36,443 nucleotides of DNA from Acidimicrobiia bacterium (GTDB lineage Bacteria > Actinomycetota > Acidimicrobiia > Spongiisociales > Spongiisociaceae): NCBI GenBank assembly GCA_009838635.1, contig VXRE01000006.1:1-36443 (forward strand). The letters run 5' to 3'. Under the pieces are notes generated by a model. The model saw only the letters and a program-made list of their open reading frames with translations, was not told where the DNA came from and did no database searches. The position numbers were made by a program, and so were the translations under genes. Shown in pieces: positions 5,802 through 36,443 of this stretch. Position 1 is the stretch's first letter; every line of letters begins with the position of its first letter.

Positions 5802-6836
5802 ATGCTCCGACCGGTGATCCTGGCGGGAGGATCGGGCACCCGGCTGTGGCCGCTGTCGCGTCCCGAGCATCCCAAGCCGCTGGTCCGACCGGCCGGCGGG
5901 CGTTCGATGTTGCAGGAGACCCTCCTGCGCGCCGCCCTGCTCCCGGAACCGGCGGATCCGATCATCGTGTGCGGTGAGGGCCACTACCAGCCCGTATCCG
6001 ACCAACTGGCCGAGATAGGGGTGAAACGCTTCCAGGCGGTGCTGGAACCGGTGGGCCGCAACACCGCTCCCGCCGCAGCCGCAGCCGCGTTGCTGTCGGC
6101 GGCGGACGACCTGCTGCTGGTGCTCCCGGCCGACCATGCCGTCAGAGACACCGCAGCCTTCGTCGAGGTGGTGGAGCGAGCCACGGCCGCCGCCCGGGCC
6201 GGCTGGCTGGTCACCTTCGGCGTCACGCCGGACCGGCCCGAGACCGGATACGGCTATATCGAGCACGGGCCGGCCGTCGCCGACCTCCCGGGCGTGATCA
6301 GGATCGCCTCGTTCCGCGAGAAACCGGACCGTCCGACCGCCCGCCGTTACGTCGATTCGGGCCGCTACTCATGGAACTCCGGCATGTTCCTGTTCCGGGC
6401 CGGCACCCTCGTCGACGAACTGCGGTCAGCCAGTCCCGGCATTGTCCGCCAGGTACGGGCCGCGCTCGGCGGCCGGGGCGGCGAAGGTCCGGTGGTGTTG
6501 GAGGAGCAGGCCTTCTCAGCCTGTCCGGAGGGCTCCATCGACCGGGTGGTAATGGAGCGGACCCGTCGCGGCGCCATGGCGCCCTTCGAGGCGGGATGGT
6601 CCGACCTGGGGTCCTGGGCCGCTCTCTGGGAGAGAGCCACCAGAGACGAGCACGGGAACGTGGTGGCCGGGCCTGCCGAGGTGCGCTCGGTCTCGTCCAG
6701 CTACGTCTCGGCCGGGGAGCGGCCCGTCCTGGTACTCGGCCTCGACGGGGTCATAGTGGTGGATACCGGGGACGCGGTCCTCGTGGCGGCCATGGACCTG
6801 GCCCAGGACGTCAGGCCCCCTGAGCATAGTTGTTAG
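5802..6836 (+). CDS. manC: Mannose-1-phosphate guanylyltransferase
   Basis: LAGGSGTRLWPLSRPEHPKPL, LPADHAV, FREKPDRPTA, WNSGMFLFRA, SDLGSWAALWE. Confidence 0.9.
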   Translation: MLRPVILAGGSGTRLWPLSRPEHPKPLVRPAGGRSMLQETLLRAALLPEPADPIIVCGEGHYQPVSDQLAEIGVKRFQAVLEPVGRNTAPAAAAAALLSAADDLLLVLPADHAVRDTAAFVEVVERATAAARAGWLVTFGVTPDRPETGYGYIEHGPAVADLPGVIRIASFREKPDRPTARRYVDSGRYSWNSGMFLFRAGTLVDELRSASPGIVRQVRAALGGRGGEGPVVLEEQAFSACPEGSIDRVVMERTRRGAMAPFEAGWSDLGSWAALWERATRDEHGNVVAGPAEVRSVSSSYVSAGERPVLVLGLDGVIVVDTGDAVLVAAMDLAQDVRPPEHSC

Positions 6837-6850
6837 TTGCTAGTTGCTAG
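6827..6850 (+). repeat. Heptad TAG array at 3' end of manC
   Basis: TAG at 6827, 6834 (manC stop), 6841, 6848; exact 7-nt spacing. Confidence 0.85.
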
Positions 6851-6888
6851 TCGTTAATTGCACTAACAACCAGCAATACGAAACTCTG

Positions 6889-7053
6889 TCAAGGACTGCT
6901 TCCCCAAACAGCCACGAAGTTAAGCCTCTCCCCCCGCCAAGGCCACGCCGCCACGAACGCGATCTTCTCAAACGGGTCGGCTGGCCGCAACAACTGCAAC
7001 TCTTCCTCATAGCCGACCTGCCTGTGAGGGCGTTGATTAGTAGTTGGTAATAA
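6889..7053 (-). pseudogene. Start-less 54-codon open frame, possible protein relic between manC and rpoC
   Basis: Minus frame reads LLPTTNQRPHRQVGYEEELQLLRPADPFEKIAFVAAWPWRGERLNFVAVWGSSP*; no ATG; flanked by heptad TAG arrays. Confidence 0.3.
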
Positions 7054-7081
7054 CTAGCAACTAGAAACTAGGGGCTAGAAA

Positions 7082-7084
<3 letters not shown>
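7054..7084 (-). repeat. Heptad TAG array at 3' end of rpoC
   Basis: CTA (TAG on minus) at 7082 (rpoC stop), 7075, 7068, 7061, 7054; exact 7-nt spacing. Confidence 0.9.
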
Positions 7085-11118
<4,034 letters not shown>

Positions 11119-16060: not shown

Positions 16061-16123
16061 CGGTCCGGAACCGGGAAACCGCGGGCAGTGTAGCGACCGC
16101 GCCCACCCTGCGCCAGGCAGGTC

Positions 16124-16184
16124 TAGTTTCTAGTCTCTAGTTTCTAGTTGCTAGTTTCTAATATTGACTAAGAACTAGTAACTA
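16124..16184. repeat. Palindromic heptad TAG array between rplA and rplJ
   Basis: Plus TAG at 16124, 16131, 16138, 16145, 16152 then TAA at 16159; minus TAG (CTA) at 16168, 16175, 16182; all 7-nt spaced. Confidence 0.9.
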
Positions 16185-21214: not shown

Positions 21215-22402
21215 TTATTCGATGATTTTGGTGACGGTGCCTGCTCCGACGGTGCGTCCGCCTTCTCTGATGGCGAAGCGGAGTCCTTCGTCCATCGCGA
21301 TCGCCGATCCCAATTGGACGGTCATGGTGGTGTTATCTCCGGGCATGACCATCTCCACCCCCTGGGGCAACGTCACGGTTCCGGTGACGTCGGTGGTACG
21401 GAAATAGAACTGGGGCTGGTAACCGGAGAAGAACGGGTTATGCCGCCCTCCCTCGTCCTTAGTCAGCACATACACCTGGGCTTCGAACCCGGTGTGGGGG
21501 GTGATCGACCCCGGCTCCGCCAACACCTGGCCCCGCTCCACCTCGGTCTTGCCAACCCCACGGAGTAGGACACCGACGTTGTCGCCGGCCATGCCCTCAT
21601 CCAACAGCTTGCGGAACATCTCCACGCCGGTAGCCACCGTCCGCCGCGTCTCCCGGATACCTACCACCTCGACAGGGTCACCAACTTTGACGATGCCGGC
21701 CTCGACCTTGCCCGTCACTACGGTGCCTCTGCCGGTGATGGAGAACACATCCTCTATAGGCATCAAAAACGGGCGATCCACCGGACGGTCAGGAACCGGC
21801 ACATAATCGTCTACCGCCCCCACCAACTCCAACACACCCGAAGCCGCCTCCTCGTCTCCTTCTAGGGCCGCCAACGCAGACACCTGGACCACCGGCACGT
21901 CATCGCCGGGGAACCCGTAATCGTCCAACAACTCCCGAACCTCCAACTCCACCAACTCCAACAACTCCGGATCATCCACCAAATCGACCTTGTTCAAAGC
22001 CACCACCACACAAGGAACCCCCACCTGGCGAGCCAACAGAACATGCTCCCGCGTCTGGGGCATAGGACCATCCGCCGCAGACACCACCAAAACAGCCCCA
22101 TCCACCTGCGCCGCGCCGGTGATCATGTTCTTTATGTAATCAGCATGACCCGGCATGTCCACATGCGCGTAATGCCGCGCCTCCGACTCATACTCCACAT
22201 GAGCAATAGCAATAGTAATACCACGCTCACGCTCCTCAGGCGCCTTATCAATATCATCAAACACCGTAAACACATTACCCTCAACCCGCTCAGCCAACAC
22301 CCGAGTAATCGCCGCAGTCAAAGTCGTCTTCCCATGATCAATATGACCCATAGTCCCAACATTCACATGCGGCTTATCCCGCACAAAACGCTCCTTACCC
22401 AT
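21215..22402 (-). CDS. tuf: Elongation factor Tu
   Basis: [86 protein letters not shown]. Confidence 0.98.
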
Positions 22403-22484
22403 GACGATTCTCTCCTCGTGTAGCAAGTAGTTGACACATACGTTCGGCGGGCCGGCCATCCCGCGTAGGACAACCGACCGCTCG

Positions 22485-22558
22485 TAGCGGCGGGCAGACT
22501 TGAACTGCCGACCTCTCGATTATGAGTCGAGCGCTCTTACCGACTGAGCTACGCCGCC
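22485..22558 (-). tRNA. tRNA with CAT anticodon (Met, or Ile2)
   Basis: Minus: GGCGGCGTAGCTCAGTCGGTAAGAGCGCTCGACTCATAATCGAGAGGTCGGCAGTTCAAGTCTGCCCGCCGCTA; loop CTCATAA. Confidence 0.9.
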
Positions 22559-22596
22559 TGGCCCTTGGGCAGGACAGGCTGTTCACCTGCCTGCCG

Positions 22597-22670
22597 AGCC
22601 CCCTTCCGGATTCGAACCGGAGACCTCCTCCTTACCATGGAGGCGCTCTGGCCTACTGAGCTAAGGGGGC
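22597..22670 (-). tRNA. tRNA-Thr(GGT)
   Basis: Minus: GCCCCCTTAGCTCAGTAGGCCAGAGCGCCTCCATGGTAAGGAGGAGGTCTCCGGTTCGAATCCGGAAGGGGGCT; loop ATGGTAA. Confidence 0.93.
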
Positions 22671-22703
22671 CTGTCAGGGCGGACGATCAACCGTCCGCGC
22701 CGG

Positions 22704-22785
22704 TGCCGGGAGAAGGATTCGAACCTCCGAAGGCATCGCCGGCAGATTTACAGTCTGCTCCCTTTGGCCGCTCGGGCATCCCGGC
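22704..22785 (-). tRNA. tRNA-Tyr(GTA)
   Basis: Minus: GCCGGGATGCCCGAGCGGCCAAAGGGAGCAGACTGTAAATCTGCCGGCGATGCCTTCGGAGGTTCGAATCCTTCTCCCGGCA; class II variable arm. Confidence 0.93.
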
Positions 22786-22870
22786 ACGGGTGGCAGACGC
22801 CACCGGTTTCTGGCGCAAGAATGCTAGTCGCTCCGATCCGCCGCGGAAACAAGCACGCGGCGCCCGCCGA

Positions 22871-23731
22871 TCAGATCCGGTAGTACATGTTCTCGAGCCG
22901 GCGAACCCTCTCCTCGATGGGCGGATGGGTGGAGAACAGCCGGCCGGCTCCGGCCGGACGCCGCCCGCCGAACGCCTATAGCGGGTCGGCGATGCACAAC
23001 TGGCTCACCGCCGGGTTCACGTCCATCGGTATCCTTCCCGATGCGCTCCCGATCTTCTGCAAGGCCCGGGCCAGGCTGAGCGGCTGGCCGGTCATCTCGG
23101 CGCCCGAGCGATCGGCCTGGTACTCGCGAGCCCGCGAGATCGCCATCCGGATCACCATGCCGGCCAGCGGCGCCAGGATCATTGCGGCCAGGGCCACCAC
23201 CAAGCCGATCGCGTTGTTGTTGCGACGGCCTCCGCCCCCGAACCAGAAGGCCATCCGGGCGAAGATGGACAGGGCGGCGGCGAGCATCGCGGCGATCGAG
23301 GAGATCAGAATGTCACGGTTGCGGACATGGGAGAGCTCGTGCGCGATGACACCCTCTAGTTCGTCATCCCGCATGATCTCGAGGATGCCCGTGGTGACGG
23401 CGACGGCGGCGTTCTTGGGATTGCGACCGGTGGCGAAGGCGTTGGGCTGGGCGGAATCGATCAGGTGGATGGAGGGCACGGGCATGTTCGACGAGGCGGC
23501 CAGGCGGCGCACCATGCCGTAGACCTTGGGCAGCTCCTGCTCGGTCACGGGTCGGGCCCGGCTCATGGCGAGGGCCATCTTGGCGGAGAAGAAGTAGGCG
23601 CCGAGGTTGAGCAGGGCTGCGAACCCCAAACCGATGTATATGCCCTGGGAGCCGCCGAACAGCGCCCATCCGAGCATCCAGACGAGCGCGCTCATCAGGC
23701 TCAACAGCGCGACCGTCTTCAGGTTGTTCAT
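22871..23731 (-). CDS. htpX: HtpX-family membrane metalloprotease; in-frame TAG at 22976-22978 interrupts the C-terminus
   Basis: MNNLKTVALLSLMSALVWMLGWALFGG..., GVIAHELSHVRNRD (HEXXH), AREYQADRSGAEMTG; after TAG the same frame reads AFGGRRPAGAGRLFSTHPPIEERVRRLENMYYRI* to TGA at 22871-22873. Confidence 0.85.
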
Positions 23732-23754
23732 GGTGATCGGATCATAATGGTGCC

Positions 23755-23857
23755 AGGAGGGTACTGAAAAATGTCCAGTTGGCCAGGTAGCCGGCAATAA
23801 AACCCCAGGTCAAAGTGTCGTAAGCCAATCCTTGCCCGTCTTTTTCAGCACCCTCCT
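23755..23857. mobile_element. Candidate 103-bp MITE-like element with 17-bp terminal inverted repeats
   Basis: AGGAGGGTACTGAAAAA (23755-23771) vs TTTTTCAGCACCCTCCT (23841-23857): 16/17 inverted match; no coding content. Confidence 0.55.
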
Positions 23858-23864
23858 AGGACCG

Positions 23865-24938
23865 CTATCGGGTGGCCACCAGGACCCGGAAGTCGCCGAA
23901 ACCCCGGGGGTGCAGCAGGGTGTCGATCTCCTTCACCCTCGACCGGAGACGGAGCCGCTCGATCGGATCGCCGCCCCGCGCCTCCGCCAGCTCCCGCCTG
24001 CGTAGTTCCTCCCTCCTGGCGTCCAGCCCCAGCTCGGACAGGAACTCGTCCTGGCGGCATAGCCTGGTCTGCATTCCCCGGTCGGAGGCCACCCTGGCCA
24101 GGGCAGAGAAGTCGACGTCGGCGGTTATGTCCATAGAGCCCGGCTCGTCGAGCGGATGCCGGGAGAGGTGATGAGCCCGATAGGTTCGCAGCGTCCCACC
24201 CCTGCGGCGGCGGGGCAGGAGTCCTTCCGAAGTGTCCCCGTAGTCGATGACCACGACCGCGCCGGCCTCGAGCAGATCGATCATCCGAAGCATCCAGTCG
24301 CTAGCAGCCGGCTGGCACTCCACCACCCCACCGGCGGGCACACCTGCGGCATGCGCCTCCAGCCAGGCCAGCACCTCGGGACGGGCGGGCGCCTCCACCA
24401 GCACCAGATCGGCGCCTTCGGACCAGACCCGGCGCTCCGACCAGCCCCCGTCCTCCGCCCGTACCGCAATTGCCACCGGAAGGTTGTCCACGACCTCGTT
24501 GGCGATGACCACTCCCCGGAAGCGATCCGGTTCCCGGCGGTCCGGCACCACCTCGACAACCGGGAGCGCCTGGCGGAGTGCCTGCCGGGCGGCGGGAGAG
24601 GCCTCCAGCGCCACGGTTCGGGGCGTCCAGTCCAGCGCACCTAGCAGCGGACACAGCAGGGTGCCCGACCCCGCTCCCACCTCCAGCAGGGTGAACCCGG
24701 CCGGGCGGCCCAGCCGCCGGAACTCCCGGCCCACGAAGCGGGCGAGCGTGGCCCCGAACTCGGCGCTCGTCTCGGGGCTGGTCAGGAAGTCCCCCTCGGC
24801 CCGGGACCGCAGCGGCCCCGAAGCGAAGTACCCGCCGTCGGGGTCGTAGAGCGCCATCTCCATGAAGCGGTCGAACGGGATCGGCCCCTCACGGTGGATC
24901 AGGCGGCGGATCCGCCCCTGGAGCCCGCTCCGCTTCAT
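23865..24938 (-). CDS. SAM-dependent methyltransferase, MidA/NDUFAF7 (COG1565-like) family
   Basis: IPFDRFMEMALYDPDGGYF, GDFLTSPETSAEFGATLARF, LLEVGAGSGTLL, VIANEVVDNLPV, VVIDYGD. Confidence 0.85.
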   Translation of the reverse strand: MKRSGLQGRIRRLIHREGPIPFDRFMEMALYDPDGGYFASGPLRSRAEGDFLTSPETSAEFGATLARFVGREFRRLGRPAGFTLLEVGAGSGTLLCPLLGALDWTPRTVALEASPAARQALRQALPVVEVVPDRREPDRFRGVVIANEVVDNLPVAIAVRAEDGGWSERRVWSEGADLVLVEAPARPEVLAWLEAHAAGVPAGGVVECQPAASDWMLRMIDLLEAGAVVVIDYGDTSEGLLPRRRRGGTLRTYRAHHLSRHPLDEPGSMDITADVDFSALARVASDRGMQTRLCRQDEFLSELGLDARREELRRRELAEARGGDPIERLRLRSRVKEIDTLLHPRGFGDFRVLVATR

Positions 24939-24961
24939 AACGTGCCCTGAGCAGTGGTCGC

Positions 24962-25029
24962 TAGTTGGTAGTTAGTAGTTAACATAGAATTATACTGACT
25001 AGAAACTAGCAACTAGAAACTACAAACTA
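24962..25029. repeat. Palindromic heptad TAG array at 3' end of purine nucleoside phosphorylase gene
   Basis: Plus TAG at 24962, 24969, 24976; minus TAG (CTA) at 25027, 25020 (stop), 25013, 25006, 24999; 7-nt spacing. Confidence 0.9.
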
Positions 25030-25844
25030 GGAAGCAGGGCGTCGAAGAGCGCCCGGAGGTCTCCGGCTGCCCGGCCGGCCGTCTCGATGACCTCCTCGCC
25101 GGTGATCTTGCGGCCGGCCAACCCGGCTGCCCGGTTGGTACACAGCGATATTCCAAGCACCTCCGCGCCCATGTGGCGAGCGGCGATGGCTTCCGGCACG
25201 GTGGACATCCCGATCAGGTCGGCGCCCAAAGTGATGGCCATCCTGATCTCGGCCGGGGTCTCGAACATCGGCCCGCGCCACCACATGTAGACACCTTCAT
25301 GCAGCGAGATCCCCACCGAGGAGGCAGCGGCGATGGCTATCCGGCGCAGCGCCGGGGAGTACACGTCGGTCATGTCGGGGAATCGGGTTCCGAGGCGTTC
25401 ATCGTTGTCGCCGCGCAAGGGGCCGAGACCGGTCGGGTTGATGTGGTCGGTCAGGAGTACGAGGTCGCCGGGATCGATGCCGGGCGTGCATCCACCGGAG
25501 GCGTTGGTCAGGACCACCTTGCGGGCGCCGGCCATGACGGCCGCTCGCACCGGAAAGACGATCTCGGCCGGGCTGTAGCCCTCGAAGTGATGGACCCGGC
25601 CCGAGTAGAGCAACACCCGGTTGCCGCCCATCTCGAGGGAGTAGGCGGTGCCGGCGTGACCGGGAGCGGAGGGTTGCGGGAAGCCAGGTATCTCCGAGTA
25701 CGGGATTGCCACCGCACCATCGAGAGTGTCGGGATAGCCGCCGAGACCCGAGCCCAGCACGGCCACCACATCGTGGGCGTCCCGCCCGGTGAGCCGGTTG
25801 AGAACCTCCGCCGCCTCCGTGAGACGCTGGTACAGATCGCCCAT
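25020..25844 (-). CDS. Trimeric-type purine nucleoside phosphorylase (candidate 5'-methylthioinosine / 5'-deoxyinosine phosphorylase)
   Basis: VLGSGLGG, GRVHHFEGYS, LTNASGGCTPGIDPGDLVLLTDHIN, GPMFETPAEIRM, GMSTVPEAIAARHMGAEVLGISLCTNRAAG; start at MGDLYQ or upstream at 25895. Confidence 0.88.
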   Translation of the reverse strand: MGDLYQRLTEAAEVLNRLTGRDAHDVVAVLGSGLGGYPDTLDGAVAIPYSEIPGFPQPSAPGHAGTAYSLEMGGNRVLLYSGRVHHFEGYSPAEIVFPVRAAVMAGARKVVLTNASGGCTPGIDPGDLVLLTDHINPTGLGPLRGDNDERLGTRFPDMTDVYSPALRRIAIAAASSVGISLHEGVYMWWRGPMFETPAEIRMAITLGADLIGMSTVPEAIAARHMGAEVLGISLCTNRAAGLAGRKITGEEVIETAGRAAGDLRALFDALLPSL

Positions 25845-25875
25845 CACCACCTTGTATCCGCTGCCGGACGGCCGG

Positions 25876-26601
25876 TCAGCCGTCGATGAGGGCATCCAGT
25901 CCGATGTCGATCATCGCCTCCACCGCGTCATAGACGACCTGGCGGTGCGGATCGTAACCCCCCGCCTCCCTGTGGAGGGGATTGCCGTCCGCTACCAGCA
26001 CCGCCCCGGTGGTCAGCGAGTTGAGCGAGCCATTGACGAACAGGGCGGCACACTCCATCTCGACCGCGATGGCGCCCGCCCGGTGCCAGAACTCCAGGTC
26101 GCCCCCTAGCACCTCGCCCGGATAGAACAGCGAGTGGGTGAGCACCACGCCCTCGTGGGAGCGGCGCCTAGTGGAGGCGACCGCCCGGCGGATCGCGGTG
26201 ACCACGTCTACCGAAGCGAGCGCCGGGAAGGGCGCGGGGACCATGGCGTCGGTGACACCGTCGGCGCGGATGGCGCCGGTGACGATCACCAGATCGCCGT
26301 CCTCGACCTCGACGGCCAGACCCCCGCAGGTTCCGGTCCGGATGATCCGGCGGACGCCGGCGCGGCTCAACTCCTCGAACACGATGACCGCTCCGGGCGC
26401 TCCCACCCCGTGCGAAGCCACGGCCACGTCGACGCCTCGATGGGTCCCGCCGTACGTCACGTACTCCCGGAAGCTGCCCAGCATCCGCCGACCCTCGAGG
26501 CGCCGGGCGGCCAGCTCCGCCCGGGCGGGATCGCCCATCACCAGCACCCGCTCGGGCACGTCATCCGGATCCACCCGAAGGATCGGGGTCAGTTCGGCCA
26601 T
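25876..26601 (-). CDS. Nucleoside phosphorylase, PNP_UDP_1 (uridine phosphorylase/DeoD-like) superfamily
   Basis: VLVMGDPARAELAA, GVGAPGAVIVFEEL, IIRTGTCGGL, AIAVEMECAALF. Confidence 0.88.
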   Translation of the reverse strand: MAELTPILRVDPDDVPERVLVMGDPARAELAARRLEGRRMLGSFREYVTYGGTHRGVDVAVASHGVGAPGAVIVFEELSRAGVRRIIRTGTCGGLAVEVEDGDLVIVTGAIRADGVTDAMVPAPFPALASVDVVTAIRRAVASTRRRSHEGVVLTHSLFYPGEVLGGDLEFWHRAGAIAVEMECAALFVNGSLNSLTTGAVLVADGNPLHREAGGYDPHRQVVYDAVEAMIDIGLDALIDG

Positions 26602-26629
26602 CCAAACACCTCCTCGACCGGCAGCCTAT

Positions 26630-28603
26630 TCAGACCACCCGTTCGTTGCCTCCGTCCACGGGGACCTGCGCGCCCGTGGTCACCGCGAAGGCATCCCCGC
26701 ACAGTTCGACCACCACTCTGGCGACGGCGGCCGAGGTCACCTCGGCCGACAGGAGGTTCCGGGTCCGGTACTCGGCCTCGCTGAGCCCGTAGGCGGCGGC
26801 CCGCTGAGCGATCAGATCCTCGTCCCAGAGTCCGGTGTCGAACACCCCGTCCGGATGCACCAGGTTGACCCGGATGCCGTCATCGGCCCACTCGAGAGCC
26901 GCCACCCGGGCCAGCTGGGTGACGGCCGCCTTGGAGGCGGAGTAAGCGGCGACACCGCGGCCGGGAGCGGCGACGTTCTTGGAGGCGATCACCACCACCC
27001 GGCCTCCCACCGGGGAGCAGGCCAGGAAGGGATGGACGGAGGCGAGGAGGGTGGCCACGGCGTCCGCGTTGACGGACAGCGTCGCCCGCCACCGGTCCTC
27101 GTCGAGCTCGCCGACCGGCTGGGCCTTGCCGAACACCCCGGCCGCCGGCACCACGATGTCGATGCCCCCGAACCGCTCCACCCCCGCCTCGATCGCCGCC
27201 TGCTGGGCGGAGCTGTCGGTCACGTCCACCGCCACGCCCAGCCAGGCCGGACCATCGAAAGCGTCCACGACCGCTCCGTCACGGTCCAGGCCGACCACCG
27301 CGCATCCCCTCGACAGCAGGGCCGCAGCGCAGGCCCGGCCGATGCCCGAAGCGGCTCCGGTCACGACCGCCACCATGCCGGCGAACTCCGGAGGCCTGCC
27401 CGCCCGGCGCAGCTTGGCCTGCTCCAGATCCCAGTACTCGCAGTCGAACAGATGGCCCGCCTCGAGCGCCACGTACCCGCCCAGATGGTCCTCGGCGCGT
27501 TCGAGGACGGGCATGGTGTGCTGGTAGATGTCGGCGGCGATCCCGGAGGCCTTGGCGGTCTCGCCCACGGTCAGGAGACCCAACTCCCTGTCCACCACCA
27601 CCCGCGGCGCCGGATCGAGCATGGTCAGCTCGGTCCGGGCGCGGTGCCGGTTCTCCTCGAAGTAGTGCTGGTAGCCGTCAACGTAGGCGTCCACGTCGGT
27701 GCCCACCATGGGGCACCGCTTGGTACGGATGACGTGGTCGGGCGTGAGCGGGCCCCGGGTGGCCAGGCTCCCCAGGTCGGGCCGGCCCACGAAGCGGGAC
27801 GCCGCGGCGTTCGTATGGCGGGTCATGATCATCGGCTTGCCTGCCGCAGCCGAGATCTGGTTGCGGAGCCGGGCCAGCGCTACCGGCGCTGCCGGAGGGA
27901 GCCCCGCCTCGTCTTGGGTAGGCGCCAGCGGGGCGCGGGCGTCGAGCCACTCCTCGGCCCTGGTGATCAGCTCGATATGGCGGCCGTATGCCTCCTTCGT
28001 GGTGTCCCCGAAGGTGAACAGGCCATGGTTGAGGAGGACCATTCCGGTGGCGCCCTCGTGCGGCTGAGCGCGCCAGATCTCTACCACCAGTCGGGCGAGG
28101 TCGAAGCCGGGCATGACGTAGGGCACCACCAGCACGTCGCTTCCGAATACCTCCCGGATCCGCCCCTCCCCGTCGGCCAGGTTGGTGAGGGTGACGATCA
28201 CGTCCGCATGGCTGTGCTGGACGGCCCGGTAGGGCAGGAAGGCGTGCAGCAGGGTCTCGACCGAAGGTTGCGGGGCGGCCGGGTCGAGGCGGGCGGCGGA
28301 CAGCTCCCGCATCATGTCCGGATCGGAGAGCCGGTCGAGCGACAGCAGGTCTTGGAGCCGGTCGATCGGCAGGGGTGTGAACCCCGGCGCCTCGATGGTG
28401 GACAGGTCCCACCCCGAGCCCTTCACGTAGAGGGCTTCGATGGTGCGGCCCGTTATGTCGCGAAACGGCGCCTTGACGGATGTGTTGCCGCCGCCGTGCA
28501 GCACGAGGAAGGGGTCGCTCCCCAGCAGGCGTGATCCGTAGACACACCCACCGAGCGGCCCTTCGAATGCCGCCGCCTCAGTGTCGTCCCACCTGTCTTC
28601 CAT
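26630..28603 (-). CDS. Bifunctional class II aldolase / short-chain dehydrogenase (RhaD-aldolase/ADH-like fusion)
   Basis: LHGGGNTSVKAPFRD, HSHADVIVTLT (HxH), LLNHGLFTFGDTTKEAYGRHIELI, then Rossmann VTGAASGIGRA and YSASK. Confidence 0.9.
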   Translation of the reverse strand: MEDRWDDTEAAAFEGPLGGCVYGSRLLGSDPFLVLHGGGNTSVKAPFRDITGRTIEALYVKGSGWDLSTIEAPGFTPLPIDRLQDLLSLDRLSDPDMMRELSAARLDPAAPQPSVETLLHAFLPYRAVQHSHADVIVTLTNLADGEGRIREVFGSDVLVVPYVMPGFDLARLVVEIWRAQPHEGATGMVLLNHGLFTFGDTTKEAYGRHIELITRAEEWLDARAPLAPTQDEAGLPPAAPVALARLRNQISAAAGKPMIMTRHTNAAASRFVGRPDLGSLATRGPLTPDHVIRTKRCPMVGTDVDAYVDGYQHYFEENRHRARTELTMLDPAPRVVVDRELGLLTVGETAKASGIAADIYQHTMPVLERAEDHLGGYVALEAGHLFDCEYWDLEQAKLRRAGRPPEFAGMVAVVTGAASGIGRACAAALLSRGCAVVGLDRDGAVVDAFDGPAWLGVAVDVTDSSAQQAAIEAGVERFGGIDIVVPAAGVFGKAQPVGELDEDRWRATLSVNADAVATLLASVHPFLACSPVGGRVVVIASKNVAAPGRGVAAYSASKAAVTQLARVAALEWADDGIRVNLVHPDGVFDTGLWDEDLIAQRAAAYGLSEAEYRTRNLLSAEVTSAAVARVVVELCGDAFAVTTGAQVPVDGGNERVV

Positions 28604-28661
28604 CAGAATCTCCCAGGCCCTGCGGGAGCAAGACTAAACCGGGACCGGCTGGCGGTCGCGG

Positions 28662-28955
28662 TCAGGCGATACGGGTCATCCGGGTGACCACCACGGACTC
28701 GGTATGGTCCGCAATGGCGGCCAGGCCATCGGCGATGTGGGGTTCGTCGAGGTGAGCGTCGAGGTCGGCTTCGTTACGCCAGAGGGCAACGAAGCAGAAG
28801 AGCCCGGGTTCGCTGCGGACCTCGTGCAGCCGGTAAACGAGGCAACCCTCCTCCTCACGGGTGGGCGCGACCATCGCGATGAGAGCGTCCCGCACGGTCT
28901 CCTCCGATCCGGGAACGGCCCGCACCCGGGCCACGGCTGTGAGAGCGCCCGCCAT
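28662..28955 (-). CDS. Antibiotic biosynthesis monooxygenase (ABM) domain protein
   Basis: 97 aa: MAGALTAVARVRAVPGSEETVRDALIAMVAPTREEEGCLVYRLHEVRSEPGLFCFVALWRNEADLDAHLDEPHI. Confidence 0.85.
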   Translation of the reverse strand: MAGALTAVARVRAVPGSEETVRDALIAMVAPTREEEGCLVYRLHEVRSEPGLFCFVALWRNEADLDAHLDEPHIADGLAAIADHTESVVVTRMTRIA

Positions 28956-29008
28956 GGAGTTCAACTGTACCGCCCTTCCCGCTTGCCGGGACAGGAGTGA
29001 GTCAGGGT

Positions 29009-29791
29009 TCAGTACCAGGTGTCGCCGCCGTCCACGTTGATGGCCTGGCCCCGGATTATGTGCGCCGCGTCCGACAGCAGGAAGGCGATCACCCGGCCCA
29101 CCTCCATCGGGGTGATGCGCCTGCCCAACTGCGCCGGCCCCATCGATCCCAGGAGCTCCTCGGCCGGGATGTCGAGCCGGGGCGAGAGCCACTCGGCCAC
29201 CCCGGCCAGCATGGGGGTGTCGACCCCGCCCGGACAGACCGCGTTGACGTTGATACCGTGCTCGGCCCACTCCATGGACAGGGACCGGGTGAGACCCAAG
29301 ACCGCCGACTTGGAGGCGTTGTAGGCGGCCATGTTGCGGTAGCCAACCTTGCCGCAGTTGGACGCCACGTTGACGATGCTGCCCCCGCCCGAGGCCTTGA
29401 GCCGCTTCCCGACCGCCTGGGCGACCAGGAACGACCCGGTGACGTTGATCTCGAGCTGGTGGTTCCAGTCGGGACCGGTGGCCTCCCAGGCCTCGTCGAG
29501 CGTCACCACCCCGGCGTTGTTGACCGCGCCGTCGATGCGGCCGAAGTGCTGCACCGTGCTCTCCACCGCCGCTTCAACCTCGTCCGCATCGGACACATCG
29601 GCTCTGAAGGCGGCGGACGATGTGTCGGCCAACCCGACCCGTCGGGCCGTCGATCGGGCGCCGTCCAGGTCAATGTCCACCAGAGCCACCATCCCGCCGG
29701 CCTCGACGAGGGCCCCGGCGATCCCTTCCCCGATCCCGCCGGCCGCCCCGGTCACCAGGTAGACCCGGCCCTCAAGGCTGGTCGCGTTCAC
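29009..29791 (-). CDS. SDR family oxidoreductase
   Basis: VTGAAGGIGEGIAG, NNAGV, YNASKSAVLGLTRSLSMEWAEHGINVNAVCPG. Confidence 0.92.
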   Translation of the reverse strand: MNATSLEGRVYLVTGAAGGIGEGIAGALVEAGGMVALVDIDLDGARSTARRVGLADTSSAAFRADVSDADEVEAAVESTVQHFGRIDGAVNNAGVVTLDEAWEATGPDWNHQLEINVTGSFLVAQAVGKRLKASGGGSIVNVASNCGKVGYRNMAAYNASKSAVLGLTRSLSMEWAEHGINVNAVCPGGVDTPMLAGVAEWLSPRLDIPAEELLGSMGPAQLGRRITPMEVGRVIAFLLSDAAHIIRGQAINVDGGDTWY

Positions 29792-29801
29792 GGGACCGAC
29801 C

Positions 29802-30605
29802 TCACCAGGTGGGATTGGACATCACGCCGCCGTCCACCACCAGCTCCGCACCGGTGATCCACCGGGCCAGGTCGGAGCAGAGGAACACGCAGGCGTCCCC
29901 GATGTCCTCGCGGGTGCCGAGGCGCCCCAGCGGACAGGCCTTCTTCCAGCGTCCTACCCCGTCCGGCCAGGCATCTTCGATGCCGGGACGGGAGATCAGG
30001 CCGGGAGAGACCACGTTGACCCTAACCCCGGCGCCGCCGTAGGTCTGGGCCGCGGCCCGGGCTTGCATGATCATCCCGGCCTTGGAAACGGAGTAGTGCC
30101 CGTGTCCGGGCGCCGGGTAGCTCCCCTCGATGGAGGCGATGTGGACGATCGACCCTCCCGATCCCTGGGCAGCCATCGCGGCCGCCGCCGCCTGGGTCAG
30201 CCGGTGGGTGGCGGTGAGGTTGGTGGCGATCATCTCCGACCACTCGCGATCGGTCAGCTCGGCGAAGCCGGCCACCGTCTGGATAGCGGCGTTGTTGACC
30301 AGGCCGTCCAGCCGGCCGTAACGCTCCAGGGCCGTGTCGACGAGGAGGCGGGGCGCGTCGGAGTCGGTCAGGTCGGCGGTCACCACCAGCCCGGGCTGTC
30401 CCGAGCGGCCGGTGATGGGATCGGCCGGCGAGGACCGAGTGTGGGAGACCACCGTGGCGCCGACCGCGGCCATCCTCGCGGCGATACCGGCCCCGATGTT
30501 GCCCCCGGCGCCGGTCACGACCACCACCCGGCCGTCCAGGGCGATCAGTTCGTCCGGCGCCCCCAGACGGCCCGACGCCGGCGCGCCGGAGCTATTCCCT
30601 GGCAT
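29802..30605 (-). CDS. SDR family oxidoreductase
   Basis: VVVVTGAGGNIGAGIAARMA, NNAAIQTV, YSVSKAGMIMQARAAAQTYGGAGVRVNVVSPG; start at MPGNSSG overlapping the cupin gene. Confidence 0.88.
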   Translation of the reverse strand: MPGNSSGAPASGRLGAPDELIALDGRVVVVTGAGGNIGAGIAARMAAVGATVVSHTRSSPADPITGRSGQPGLVVTADLTDSDAPRLLVDTALERYGRLDGLVNNAAIQTVAGFAELTDREWSEMIATNLTATHRLTQAAAAAMAAQGSGGSIVHIASIEGSYPAPGHGHYSVSKAGMIMQARAAAQTYGGAGVRVNVVSPGLISRPGIEDAWPDGVGRWKKACPLGRLGTREDIGDACVFLCSDLARWITGAELVVDGGVMSNPTW

Positions 30606-31038
30606 AGCGGGCGATGAGGTCGGCGGCGTGCGGGTAGAGGCCGACCAGCTCGGAGTAGGTACCCAACTCGAATCCGTCCTCGCGGTAAGGCGGCGCCATG
30701 GTAGTTCCCACCAGCGACCAGTCTCCGGTCGTTCCGGCGCCCATCCACACTCCTCCGGGCACCGCCACGAACGGGTGCTCCCCCGCCGCCAGGTCGTCCC
30801 CGAGCAGCAGGCGTCTCGCCGCACCGTCCGGCTCCAGCAGCAGCATCTCCACCGGGTGGCCTGCGTAGTGGTGCCAGAGTTCCGGCCCGTCCAGACGATG
30901 CAGGGCCGAGAAGTCGTCAGGCTGCATCAGGTAGTAGATGGCGGTGCCGTTCTGGTCCCTCCAGGTCTGGGCCCACATTCCCCCCTCGGAAGGCAACGGC
31001 GCCAGGCCCAACAACTCGGCTACTTCGGCGCCGGTCAC
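30592..31038 (-). CDS. Cupin family protein (DUF985/COG3542-like)
   Basis: TAIYYLMQPDDFSALHRLDGPELWHHYAGHPVEMLLLEPDG...VPGGVWMGAGTTGDWSLVGTTMAP. Confidence 0.8.
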   Translation of the reverse strand: MTGAEVAELLGLAPLPSEGGMWAQTWRDQNGTAIYYLMQPDDFSALHRLDGPELWHHYAGHPVEMLLLEPDGAARRLLLGDDLAAGEHPFVAVPGGVWMGAGTTGDWSLVGTTMAPPYREDGFELGTYSELVGLYPHAADLIARYARE

Positions 31039-31048
31039 GCGACACTTC

Positions 31049-32356
31049 TCACTTGGCCAGCCGCCGGGCGCGCTCCGTCACCTCCGCCGTCACCTCGCCA
31101 ACGTCCACCGTGATCACGCGGCCGTCGCGGACCACCTGCTCACCACCCACCCAGACCGAGCGGACTGCCCGGGGCGACCCCGACCACACCAGGCGCGACA
31201 CCGGGTCGTCCTCGTCCGGCACGACCGGATGCAGAGCCGACTCCGACGGAGACAGCTGCACCATGTCGGCCCGGGAGCCCGGCTCGAGCCGGCCCAGGTC
31301 GGAGCGCCCGATGGCGTCGGCGGCCCCGGCCGTGGTCATGTGGAGCGCCTGGTGGGGTGGCATGAAGGCCGCGTCGCCCCGGTCTATCCGGGCCAGCCGG
31401 ATGGCGGTGCGCATCTCCTCGAACAGGTCGAGCCGGTGGTGCGAGGCCGGGCCGTCCGTGGCGATCCCCACCTTCATTCCGGCCCGGATCATCGCGTCGA
31501 CCCTGGCCAGGCCCGAGCCGTGCTTGGAGTTGGAACAGGGGCAATGGGCCGCCCCCACCTCGTGGCGGCCGAAGATCTCCATGTCCTCGTCCGAGAGCCA
31601 CACGCAGTGGGCGGCCAGCACCCTGGCCTCGAGCATGCCGAGCGACTCCAGGTAGGCGGGCGCCGACAGGCCGCCGGACAGCTCCCGCACCGCCTTGTCC
31701 TCCCACTCCTGCTCGGCCACGTGGATGTGGACCAGCATGTCGTGCTCGCGGGCGATCCGAGCCACCATCTCGAGGCACTCCCTCGACACCGACCAGGCGG
31801 CGTGAGGTCCCAGGCCCACCTCGATCAACTCGCTGGATGCCCACCGGTCCCGGGTGGCGACCATCTCCTCCAGTTGTTCCTGCCAGGTGCCCATCCGGCC
31901 CAGTTGGGCGTCCTCGATGATCGGAGCCGCCACCACGCAGCGGAGCCCCGCCTCGGCAGCCCCCTGAGCGACCGACTCCCCGAAGAAGTACATCTCGGAT
32001 GAGGTGGTGACGCCGTTGGAGAGGAGCTCGGCTGCGCCCATCAGCATCCCCACCCGCACGTCATCGGGGGTCAGGCGGCCCTCCCGGGGCCACATGACCT
32101 CGTGGAGCCACCGATCCACCGGAAGCCCCTCTCCGGCGCCGCGCAGCAGGATCATCGGGGTATGGGCGTGGAGGTTGACGAGTCCGGGCATCAGGATGCC
32201 GTCGATCCGGTGTACCGGCGCCCCGGCCTGGTCGGGCGCCTCCGAAGCGGGGCCGGCCCAGACCACCCGTCCCCCCTCCACGTCCACCATCCCTTGCGAG
32301 ATGGGGGCCTGGCCCTCGGACATGGTTATCAGCAGCTCGGCTTGGTAACGGTCCAT
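31049..32356 (-). CDS. mtaD: 5-methylthioadenosine/S-adenosylhomocysteine deaminase-like amidohydrolase
   Basis: GLVNLHAHTPMILLRGAGEGLPVDRWLHEVMWPREGRL, AELLSNGVTTSSEMYFF, CPCSNSKHGSGLARV, GIATDGPASHHRLDLFEEMR. Confidence 0.85.
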   Translation of the reverse strand: MDRYQAELLITMSEGQAPISQGMVDVEGGRVVWAGPASEAPDQAGAPVHRIDGILMPGLVNLHAHTPMILLRGAGEGLPVDRWLHEVMWPREGRLTPDDVRVGMLMGAAELLSNGVTTSSEMYFFGESVAQGAAEAGLRCVVAAPIIEDAQLGRMGTWQEQLEEMVATRDRWASSELIEVGLGPHAAWSVSRECLEMVARIAREHDMLVHIHVAEQEWEDKAVRELSGGLSAPAYLESLGMLEARVLAAHCVWLSDEDMEIFGRHEVGAAHCPCSNSKHGSGLARVDAMIRAGMKVGIATDGPASHHRLDLFEEMRTAIRLARIDRGDAAFMPPHQALHMTTAGAADAIGRSDLGRLEPGSRADMVQLSPSESALHPVVPDEDDPVSRLVWSGSPRAVRSVWVGGEQVVRDGRVITVDVGEVTAEVTERARRLAK

Positions 32357-32393
32357 CTACTCGCCCCCGGTCACTGCCTGTAGCATAAATGTC

Positions 32394-33446
32394 ATGCAGC
32401 AACTCGGTGACCGTCCGCTCGACTGGATCGACGGCGGCGTCTCGATGGTCGACCAGACGAGGCTTCCCGACCACTACGAGGTGATGCGGATCGAAACGGT
32501 CCCCGACATGGTGGCCGCCATCCGCCGCCTGTCCGTGCGGGGAGCGCCTGCCATCGGCGTGGCCGGGGCCCTCGGGGTGGCGCTGGCCATCAAGGCCCAC
32601 GGGACCTCCGGACCCGACTTCGACCGGGCGATCCACTCGCTGCGGGAAGCCCGACCCACCGCGGTGAACCTGGCCCGGATGGTGGACAGGGTGGCCCCCC
32701 TCGCCGAGCAAGGTCTGGACCGCGTGCTCGACGAGGCGCTCGCCGTCCGCGACGAGGAGATCGCCGCATCCGTATCCATGGGAGAGTACGGGGCCGACCT
32801 GGTGTCCGAGTTGGTCACCGAACGGGCAGCGGCCCGGGCGATGACGATCTGCAACACCGGGGGGTTGGCGACCATCGAGCGCGGTACCGCCTTGGCGGTC
32901 ATCCAGACCCTGCACGAGCGGGGCACGCTGGCGGAGGCTCTGGCGCTCGAGACTCGGCCGCTCCTCCAGGGCGCCCGCCTCACCGCCTGGGAGTTGGCCC
33001 GCATGGGCGCTCCCCACCGGATCCTGGTCGACTCCGCCGCCAACTTCATGCTGGCCCGGCGTCAAGCCGACGTGGTGCTCACCGGCGCCGACCGGATCGC
33101 CGCCAACGGTGACACGGCCAACAAGATCGGAACCTTCTCCCTGGCTCTCGGCGCCCGGTACGCCGGGGTCCCCTTCATCGTGGTCGCCCCGGAGTCGACC
33201 GTGGACATGGACACTCCCGGAGGTGACGCCATCCCCATCGAGGACCGCGACGCCGGAGAGGTGGTGTCCGTCCGGGACCGTGCTACCGCTCCTGCTAATA
33301 CCGACGCCGCCAACCCCGCCTTCGACATCACGCCGCACGCCCTGATCACCGCGATCGTGACCGATCGGCGGGTGGTCAGGATTGATCGAGGTGATAGCCT
33401 CCGGTCGGTGCCGCTCGGGGAGCTTCGCCGACCGGCCGACGAGTAG
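32394..33446 (+). CDS. mtnA: S-methyl-5-thioribose-1-phosphate isomerase
   Basis: LSVRGAPAIGVAGALGVA, CNTGGLATIERGTAL, ETRPLLQGARLTAWEL, GADRIAANGDTANKIGTFSLA. Confidence 0.93.
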   Translation: MQQLGDRPLDWIDGGVSMVDQTRLPDHYEVMRIETVPDMVAAIRRLSVRGAPAIGVAGALGVALAIKAHGTSGPDFDRAIHSLREARPTAVNLARMVDRVAPLAEQGLDRVLDEALAVRDEEIAASVSMGEYGADLVSELVTERAAARAMTICNTGGLATIERGTALAVIQTLHERGTLAEALALETRPLLQGARLTAWELARMGAPHRILVDSAANFMLARRQADVVLTGADRIAANGDTANKIGTFSLALGARYAGVPFIVVAPESTVDMDTPGGDAIPIEDRDAGEVVSVRDRATAPANTDAANPAFDITPHALITAIVTDRRVVRIDRGDSLRSVPLGELRRPADE

Positions 33447-33502
33447 TCAACACAGTCACAGACACACCAGCGGAACGTCCGCTCTGAGGGAGGAGAAACC
33501 CA

Positions 33503-34597
33503 ATGACCAGACCCCTGAAGATCCTGGTGCTCGTATTGGCGCTGGCCGTAGTGGGGGCCGCCTGCGGAGATTCCGGCGACGACGCGCCCGCCACCACAGC
33601 CGCGCCCGCCACCACAGCCGCGCCGACCACCACAGCCGCGCCGACCACCACGATGGCGCCCGAGGATCCGGTCAGCCTGATCTACGTCAGCCCCAACCCG
33701 TTGGGCGTGAACAACTTTCTGATTCTGGGCGAGGTGGGTACCCAGCGGGTCGCCGAGCGGCGCGGCGGGACGTGGAAGACCTTCGAGTCGGTGGACGACT
33801 CCACCCGGAGGGCCAACATAGAGGCAGCCATCGACGAGGCGCCTGACGTCATCGTTCTCACCACATTCACGCTCGTCGAGATGGCAGACGAGTACTCCAA
33901 GGCCAACCCCGACCAGAAGTTCATCATCATCGACGCTTGCCCGGACGAGCCGGCGCCCAACCTGCACTGCGGAGTCTTCCGCGAGCACGAAGGCGCCTTC
34001 CTGCTCGGAGTGATGGCCGGCCACCTGTCGGAGGCGAAGCAGATCGGCTCCGTGGTGGCCCTCGACATCCCGTTCTTCAAGCGGTGGTGGCAGAGCTTTG
34101 CCGAGGGAGCGCAGTCGGTTGATCCCGCTATCGAGAACTCGGTGGTGTTCATCGCCGGTGACAACCCGTTCTCCGACCCGGCACGCGCCAAGGAACTGGC
34201 GCTGTCGCTGGCGGCGCAGGGCCCCGACCACATCTTCGCGGTTGGCGCCGGATCCAATGGCGGTATCTTCGAAGCCGCCGCGGAGGCCGGCTTCCTCTCG
34301 TACGGCGTGGACGTCAACGAGTGTCCCAGCGCGCCCGGCTACATCATCGACAACAACCTGAAGGTGGTCGATGCGGTGGTCGAGCAGCTCCTCGACCAGG
34401 TACTGGACGGGACTGCCGGTCCGGTGGTGTCCTTCGGACTGTCCGAAGGCGGGACCGGGGTGATGGCCCTGCAACCGGGCCTGGCCGACAGCGAGTGTGT
34501 GATCGCCGACCATCCCGACATCGTCGAGGAGGTCCGCGCGGTAGCCGACGGAATCATCGACGGCTCGATCGTGGTCAACGATCCGTTGTTCGGCTGA
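33503..34597 (+). CDS. BMP-family ABC transporter substrate-binding lipoprotein (nucleoside type)
   Basis: Lipobox VVGAACG, TTAAP-repeat linker, BMP-family pattern (ALDIPFFKRWWQSFAEGAQS, GAGSNGGIFEAA, GVDVNECP); followed by ABC ATPase and permease. Confidence 0.88.
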   Translation: MTRPLKILVLVLALAVVGAACGDSGDDAPATTAAPATTAAPTTTAAPTTTMAPEDPVSLIYVSPNPLGVNNFLILGEVGTQRVAERRGGTWKTFESVDDSTRRANIEAAIDEAPDVIVLTTFTLVEMADEYSKANPDQKFIIIDACPDEPAPNLHCGVFREHEGAFLLGVMAGHLSEAKQIGSVVALDIPFFKRWWQSFAEGAQSVDPAIENSVVFIAGDNPFSDPARAKELALSLAAQGPDHIFAVGAGSNGGIFEAAAEAGFLSYGVDVNECPSAPGYIIDNNLKVVDAVVEQLLDQVLDGTAGPVVSFGLSEGGTGVMALQPGLADSECVIADHPDIVEEVRAVADGIIDGSIVVNDPLFG

Positions 34598-34608
34598 TCG
34601 GGAATCGG

Positions 34609-34644
34609 CGGCTCTCCAAGAGCCGTGAAGGCGGCTGATCCGCC
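34609..34644 (+). promoter_or_regulatory. Two adjacent intercistronic hairpins before the ABC ATPase start codon
   Basis: CGGCTCT(34609-34615)-cca-AGAGCCG(34619-34625); GGCGG(34630-34634)-ctgat-CCGCC(34640-34644) abutting GTG at 34645. Confidence 0.5.
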
Positions 34645-36168
34645 GTGACAGCGGCTCTCGAGTTCCGGGGAGTAACCAAGCGGTTCCCGGGTGTGCTCGC
34701 CAACGACGCAGTCGACATGACGGTGCGCGCCGGGGAGATCCACGCAGTGGTCGGGGAGAACGGGGCGGGCAAGACGACCCTGATGTCGATCCTGTTCGGC
34801 CTGCTCCCGGCCGACGCCGGCCACATCCTGGTGAACGGTGAACCGGCCCGGTTCGCGTCCGCCCTGGACGCTATCCGCGCCGGACTCGGGATGGTGCATC
34901 AGGCCTTCCGGCTCTTCCCCACGCTGACCGTCGCGGACAACGTGGTGTTCCGGGAGGAGCCCACGCGCAGTGGCCTGGTGGACCGGTCGGAGAGCATCCG
35001 GCAGGTGAGAGACGTCGCCGACCGGTACGGACTGGCGGTCGACCCGACCGAGGTGGTCGAGAACCTCCCGGTCGGGGTGTTACAGAGGGTCGAGATCCTC
35101 AAGGCTCTCTACCGGGACGCGCAGATCCTCATCCTGGACGAGCCGACCGCGGTGCTGACCCCCCAGGAGCGGGACAAGCTGTTCGAGGTGATCAGACTGC
35201 TCAGGGACTCCGGACGCACGATCCTGTTCATTACCCACAAGCTCGGCGAGGTGATGGCTCTGTCGGATCGAGTCACGGTCCTTCGTGACGGCCGCTCGGT
35301 CGCCCATCTCGTCACGGCCGACACGAGCCCCGAAGAGATCGCTCGGCACATGACCGGACGCGAGGTCGACCTGGACCGGAGGGCGCCTCAACACAGCCCG
35401 GGCCAAGCGGTGCTGGCGGTATCGGACCTCAGCGCTACCGGCGAGCATGGGCGGCCGGCTGTCCATGAGGCGTCGCTGGAGGTTCGTTCAGGTGAGATCG
35501 TCGGGATAGCAGGCGTAGCGGGCAACGGTCAGAGCGAGCTGATCGAGGTGATAGCGGGGCTACGGGCGGCGGACTCCGGCTCGGTGCACCTCAACGGCGT
35601 TGACATCACCCAAGCAGAGGTGTCGGCCCGCCGGTCCAGCGGCATGGCCTACGTACCGGAGGACCGCCACGGGGTGGGGACCAGCCACCGGGCCTCGGTG
35701 TGGGCCAACCTGCTGATGAGTCACCAGCGAGGACCGGCGTTCCAGCGGAGAGGCTGGTTCAACCTGCGGGCTGTCCGAAAGCACGCCCGCAACCTCATCA
35801 GCGCCTACGACATACGAACGGGCCCGATCGGCAGTCCCGTGTCCACCCTGTCGGGGGGCAACCTCCAGAAGGTCGTGGTGGCGCGCGAGATATCCCACGG
35901 GGCCCCGTTGTTGATCGCCGAGCAGCCCACCCGAGGGCTCGACATCGCGGCGATCGAGTTCATACACAGCCGTCTGATCCGGTTTCGGGATGACGGCGGA
36001 GCGGTGTTGATGGTGTCGGCCGAGTTGTCCGAGATCCTTGCCCTGAGCACCCGGATCCTGGTCATGTTCGAGGGCCGGATCGTCGTCGAGTTGGATCCTG
36101 CCGAGGTCACCGAGGCCGATGTCGGCGTGTACATGACCGGAGCGCACCAGGAGCACCCGGATGGCTGA
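34645..36168 (+). CDS. Nucleoside/sugar ABC transporter ATP-binding protein (two ABC domains)
   Basis: GENGAGKTTLMS, LPVGVLQRVEILKAL, ILILDEPTAVLTPQE; second domain GVAGNGQSELIE, LSGGNLQKVVVAREI. Confidence 0.93.
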   Translation: MTAALEFRGVTKRFPGVLANDAVDMTVRAGEIHAVVGENGAGKTTLMSILFGLLPADAGHILVNGEPARFASALDAIRAGLGMVHQAFRLFPTLTVADNVVFREEPTRSGLVDRSESIRQVRDVADRYGLAVDPTEVVENLPVGVLQRVEILKALYRDAQILILDEPTAVLTPQERDKLFEVIRLLRDSGRTILFITHKLGEVMALSDRVTVLRDGRSVAHLVTADTSPEEIARHMTGREVDLDRRAPQHSPGQAVLAVSDLSATGEHGRPAVHEASLEVRSGEIVGIAGVAGNGQSELIEVIAGLRAADSGSVHLNGVDITQAEVSARRSSGMAYVPEDRHGVGTSHRASVWANLLMSHQRGPAFQRRGWFNLRAVRKHARNLISAYDIRTGPIGSPVSTLSGGNLQKVVVAREISHGAPLLIAEQPTRGLDIAAIEFIHSRLIRFRDDGGAVLMVSAELSEILALSTRILVMFEGRIVVELDPAEVTEADVGVYMTGAHQEHPDG

Positions 36169-36443
36169 GGCTCAACCGACCCAGCGCCACAGCGCTGCCG
36201 CCAGGGTCGAGGCGGTGCTTTCCCATCCGGTTGTCTTCTCGCTGGTCTTCGCCTTCGTCCTGGGCTGGGTGATCGTCTACCTGACCGGAAACGATCCGGG
36301 CTTCGCCTACCGGGAGATGTACGACGGGGCCATCACGGGCTCAGGGCTGCGCAACACGCTAGGGAGAGCTGTTCCGATCGTCGGGATGGCCCTGGCAGTT
36401 TCGGTTGCCTTCCGGGCAGGGGTCATCAACCTGGGTGGGGAAG
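36161..36443 (+). CDS. ABC transporter permease (partial, runs off window)
   Basis: ATG at 36161 reads MAEAQPTQRHSAAARVEAVLSHPVVFSLVFAFVLGWVIVYLTGNDPGFAYREMYDGAITGSGLRNTLGRAVPIVGMALAVSFRAGVINLGGE. Confidence 0.85.
   Translation, partial: MAEAQPTQRHSAAARVEAVLSHPVVFSLVFAFVLGWVIVYLTGNDPGFAYREMYDGAITGSGLRNTLGRAVPIVGMALAVSVAFRAGVINLGGE

Follow-up and report, generated by a model that had tools for sequence, protein, structure and literature searches.

HtpX gene and the in-frame TAG

The window (the whole 36,443-nucleotide stretch of DNA that was analyzed) is one contig of a 2.89-Mb draft genome (171 contigs, 95.75% complete) whose closest named relatives are uncultured Acidimicrobiia represented by metagenome-assembled genomes. 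Its minus strand encodes the membrane protease HtpX (coding positions 22874-23731), with genes for tRNA-Tyr, tRNA-Thr, and tRNA-Met and tuf located downstream. Translation is free of stops from the methionine at 23731 through codon 251, and codon 252 is an in-frame TAG. The protein sequence reads VNPAVSQLCIADPL directly before the TAG and AFGGRRPAGAGRLFSTHPPIEERVRRLENMYYRI after it, and a TGA closes the frame. The features of the gene are listed below, from its upstream part to its end.

22979..23731, minus strand: upstream part of htpX, codons 1 to 251, with membrane helices and the zinc-binding motifs HELSH (H131, H135) and EYQAD (E203) (NCBIfam; Pfam PF01435)
22995..22995, minus strand: private transversion F246C
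22976..22978, minus strand: in-frame TAG at codon 252, where the seven closest same-genus relatives have AAG (Lys)
22966..22966, minus strand: private transversion R256G
22874..22975, minus strand: 34-codon post-stop tail with the invariant HPX4R active-site-plug motif (motif role, PMC7950410)
22925-22927, minus strand: H269 of HPX4R
22907-22909, minus strand: R275 of HPX4R
22871..22873, minus strand: original htpX stop, TGA (direct sequence)

The first-pass annotation had described an amber codon in htpX followed by 34 same-frame codons and a TGA, which is exact, and had taken these codons for a typical HtpX tail, which is borne out. A whole-gene search places the 286 residues in a single frame that is interrupted only by the one TAG. 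Inclusion of the tail raises the Pfam M48 match from 105.7 to 126.6 bits and extends its reach along the profile from position 164 to 185 of 186, and the tail aligns to every close relative without a change of frame. Given these three results, the match of frame across the TAG is not a matter of chance.

The product passes the Pfam M48 (PF01435) cutoff and matches NCBIfam HtpX models with E values down to 8e-86, although these matches are below the curated cutoffs with or without the tail. The HEXXH zinc motif is present as HELSH (residues 131 to 135; H131, E132, and H135 are invariant in homologues), and the third zinc ligand is the Glu of an EXXXD motif, EYQAD, which begins at residue 203 (E203 and D207 are also invariant). 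An M48 fold is supported by the model of an intact relative, G006 (mean pLDDT, 75.6), which matches ZMPSTE24, Ste24p, and the Vibrio HtpX domain. Thus, the gene shares its membrane helices and both zinc-binding motifs with the HtpX zinc metalloproteases of peptidase family M48. It differs in that translation should end 35 codons early, ahead of the HPX4R plug (residues 269 to 275), which the product would contain only in the event of readthrough or of an erroneous stop. No other M48 gene was found in the genome, and we therefore reject backup by a second one.

The tail carries the motif as H269-P270-x4-R275. H269 and P270 occur in all 83 distinct homologues and R275 in 82 of them, about as conserved as the HEXXH histidines, and T268, H269, P270, and R275 are invariant in a 53-sequence alignment. 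In Escherichia coli BepA, the HPX4R motif, conserved across PF01435, forms an active-site plug whose His is the fourth zinc ligand; the H246N variant of BepA fails to complement, and the protease is apparently deregulated (PMC7950410). In the G006 model, the stop position falls just ahead of a low-confidence linker (residues 255 to 266), which is followed by a more confident terminal helix (residues 272 to 284). Because the tail that carries the plug would be lost, the 251-residue product is probably inactive or deregulated. Reinitiation past the TAG was considered and rejected, as a start codon first occurs 29 codons into the tail and nothing functional is left beyond it.

Origin of the stop codon

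Codon 252 is AAG (Lys) in all seven of the closest same-genus relatives (89 to 99% amino acid identity), CAC in one further member of the genus, and ATG in one member of the family. Of 138 genomes searched within the order, 102 gave a match (the window's own genome included), and no htpX copy other than that of the window had an internal stop. As AAG is present in all seven closest relatives, the TAG represents a private A-to-T transversion, and among the relatives that could be searched it is private to this genome; the collections searched contained no genome of the same species. The comparison of close relatives proposed with the first-pass annotation thus found sense codons throughout, consistent with a simple mutation or an error. 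That annotation had offered a nonsense mutation, a sequencing or assembly error, and stop readthrough as explanations, and the first two fit the codons of the relatives, whereas the third is unsupported, as discussed below.

Private changes were those at which five same-genus genomes, aligned across most of the window, unanimously differed from it. There are five in htpX: two are synonymous (23035 and 23357), and three alter the protein (F246C, K252stop, and R256G). The latter three are all transversions, and all fall within 30 bp. Codons 1 to 245 contain no private amino acid change relative to the five genomes, such changes being confined to codons 246 to 256, and the rest of the gene, judging from its sequence, is constrained up to the present. 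Of five sites placed at random in an 858-bp gene, three would fall within 30 bp of one another with a probability of about 3%, and the chance of such a transversion triple anywhere in the window is about 19%. The cluster adjoins an inverted repeat of high GC content, CCGGCCGGctCCGGCCGG (22940-22957), and the DNA fold of this region has an energy of -22.3 kcal/mol (z, -2.15). Distant homologues differ at codons 246 and 256, so that F246C and R256G could be natural.

We conclude that the TAG is very probably a nonsense lesion confined to a single genome, whether through a very recent, real mutation or through a base-call or consensus error in the draft assembly. In the proposed sequence of events, Lys252 (AAG) became TAG in the sole M48/HtpX gene found in the genome, the TAG would terminate translation normally to give a 251-residue HtpX without the HPX4R plug, and the plug-less protein would be nonfunctional or misregulated. 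The case closely resembles the pseudogenes with internal stops, real or spurious, that are found in draft bacterial genomes (PMC11017572), which likewise have a single in-frame stop in a conserved gene that is intact in relatives; we see no notable difference from them.

Of the two origins, we slightly favor a real, very recent nonsense mutation in this strain, either as early pseudogenization or as a segregating allele, and consider it somewhat probable. The contig is colinear with that of relative G001 through the site (one alignment, 22349-36435), so there is no assembly joint there, and we reject a joint at the TAG as its cause. In sister genomes, too, some genes of this stretch contain an isolated stop or a break of frame. 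A codon-usage survey of coding-like frames, which covered about 423 kb of this genome (the window plus 20 other stretches), yielded 17 same-frame candidates with coding-like sequence past a stop; in nearly all of them a start codon follows within a few codons, so that they resemble tandem genes, and htpX alone is clearly a split gene. An assembly with one such case in about 423 kb is not generally error-ridden. A generally error-prone assembly is also not suggested by the private changes, which show no excess of transversions or of amino acid changes relative to sister genomes. Against a real mutation, however, are the clustering of the private transversions and the otherwise intact state of htpX, the genome's sole identified M48 peptidase.

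A sequencing or consensus error in the draft assembly is a serious, if less probable, origin. Three private transversions in 30 bp beside a GC-rich inverted repeat are more tightly clustered than scattered mutations would be, which leans toward either a localized error or one complex event. Illumina miscalls have been linked to GGC and inverted-repeat contexts (PMC3622629), and spurious internal stops are known from low-coverage assemblies (PMC11017572). However, relatives have similar GC-rich sequence without the changes, and the strongest error motifs reported do not occur directly ahead of the three sites. Transversions account for 44% of the private changes across the window, which is not above their share in sister genomes (46 to 51%), and the ratio of silent to amino acid private changes is also similar. 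We retain both mutation and error because the tight cluster and its inverted-repeat context are set against window-wide changes that are no more error-like than those of sister genomes.

Stop codon usage, readthrough, and recoding

Of 282 coding-like frame ends in the survey, 169 are TGA, 101 are TAG (about 36%), and 12 are TAA, and TAG also terminates several genes in the window. The genome encodes release factor RF1 (prfA); PylS was searched for in the genome and not found, and the tRNAs found (45 matches) include none that would read UAG (anticodon CUA). TAG is a normal stop in this genome.

We consider programmed UAG readthrough, which would yield two HtpX isoforms, one with and one without the active-site plug, to be very unlikely. 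The hallmark of programmed readthrough is conservation of the stop codon. Here the stop is conserved in none of the relatives searched, and neither a suppressor tRNA (CUA) nor PylS was found. The RNA fold around the stop is unremarkable (z, -1.21), with no sign of a stimulating structure. The frame and tail motif are intact past the stop, which counts for readthrough, but an intact tail is equally consistent with recent origin. In the structural model, the stop precedes a probably flexible linker and so might be a tolerable isoform boundary. Beyond this anatomy, nothing favors a switch between isoforms by plug loss. Two isoforms, one of them plug-less, would be an attractive regulatory idea if true; a strain-specific version, in which a minority of plugged full-length HtpX accompanies a deregulated short form and the stop sets the dosage of protease autoregulation, seems to us just as improbable. 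Reassignment of TAG to an amino acid, pyrrolysine or other, could accommodate the single in-frame TAG of htpX but is rejected as having a negligible probability, given the use of TAG as an ordinary stop, the presence of RF1, and the failure to find PylS or tRNA(CUA).

The lesion is of little significance in itself, being an ordinary kind of change. The case illustrates cleanly that one base of a draft genome can mimic recoding and be resolved by relatives, stop codon usage, and tRNA content. Should the loss be real, the lineage would lack the sole M48 membrane protease identified in its genome, which would be of modest interest for protein quality control in an uncultured actinobacterium.

Other features of the contig and of related genomes

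Two more clusters of private substitutions, some of them transversions, occur in the window at 29642-29716 and 31098-31124. The htpX contig of each of the five same-genus relatives examined breaks off within the 5' part of tuf, with matches reaching only to 22342-22349, and the contigs from the opposite side end before or inside tuf (window positions 21215-22459); the window contig spans the gene. A duplicated tuf gene probably breaks the assemblies of these five relatives.

Two genomes contain paired htpX copies. The public metagenome-assembled genome Plut_88890 has two (L034 and L049; JAAXHN010000172.1 and JAAXHN010000125.1), 94% and 67% identical to that of the window, and G114, which is placed in another family, has copies of 93% and 64%. 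These pairs suggest a mixed bin or transfer.

A 483-amino-acid frame at 33062-34513 finds only a stop-interrupted or piecewise fit in five of five relatives, and either the gene call or the integrity of the gene across the genus is doubtful. Heptamer-type repeats (units such as CTAGTTG, ACTAGAA, and TCTAGTT) occur in intergenic-looking sequence at 6827-6861, 7038-7091, 16122-16160, and 24998-25030. Many contigs of the five relatives have matches to short copies of the segment at 6827-6861 and to parts of 7038-7091, indicating a dispersed repeat family.
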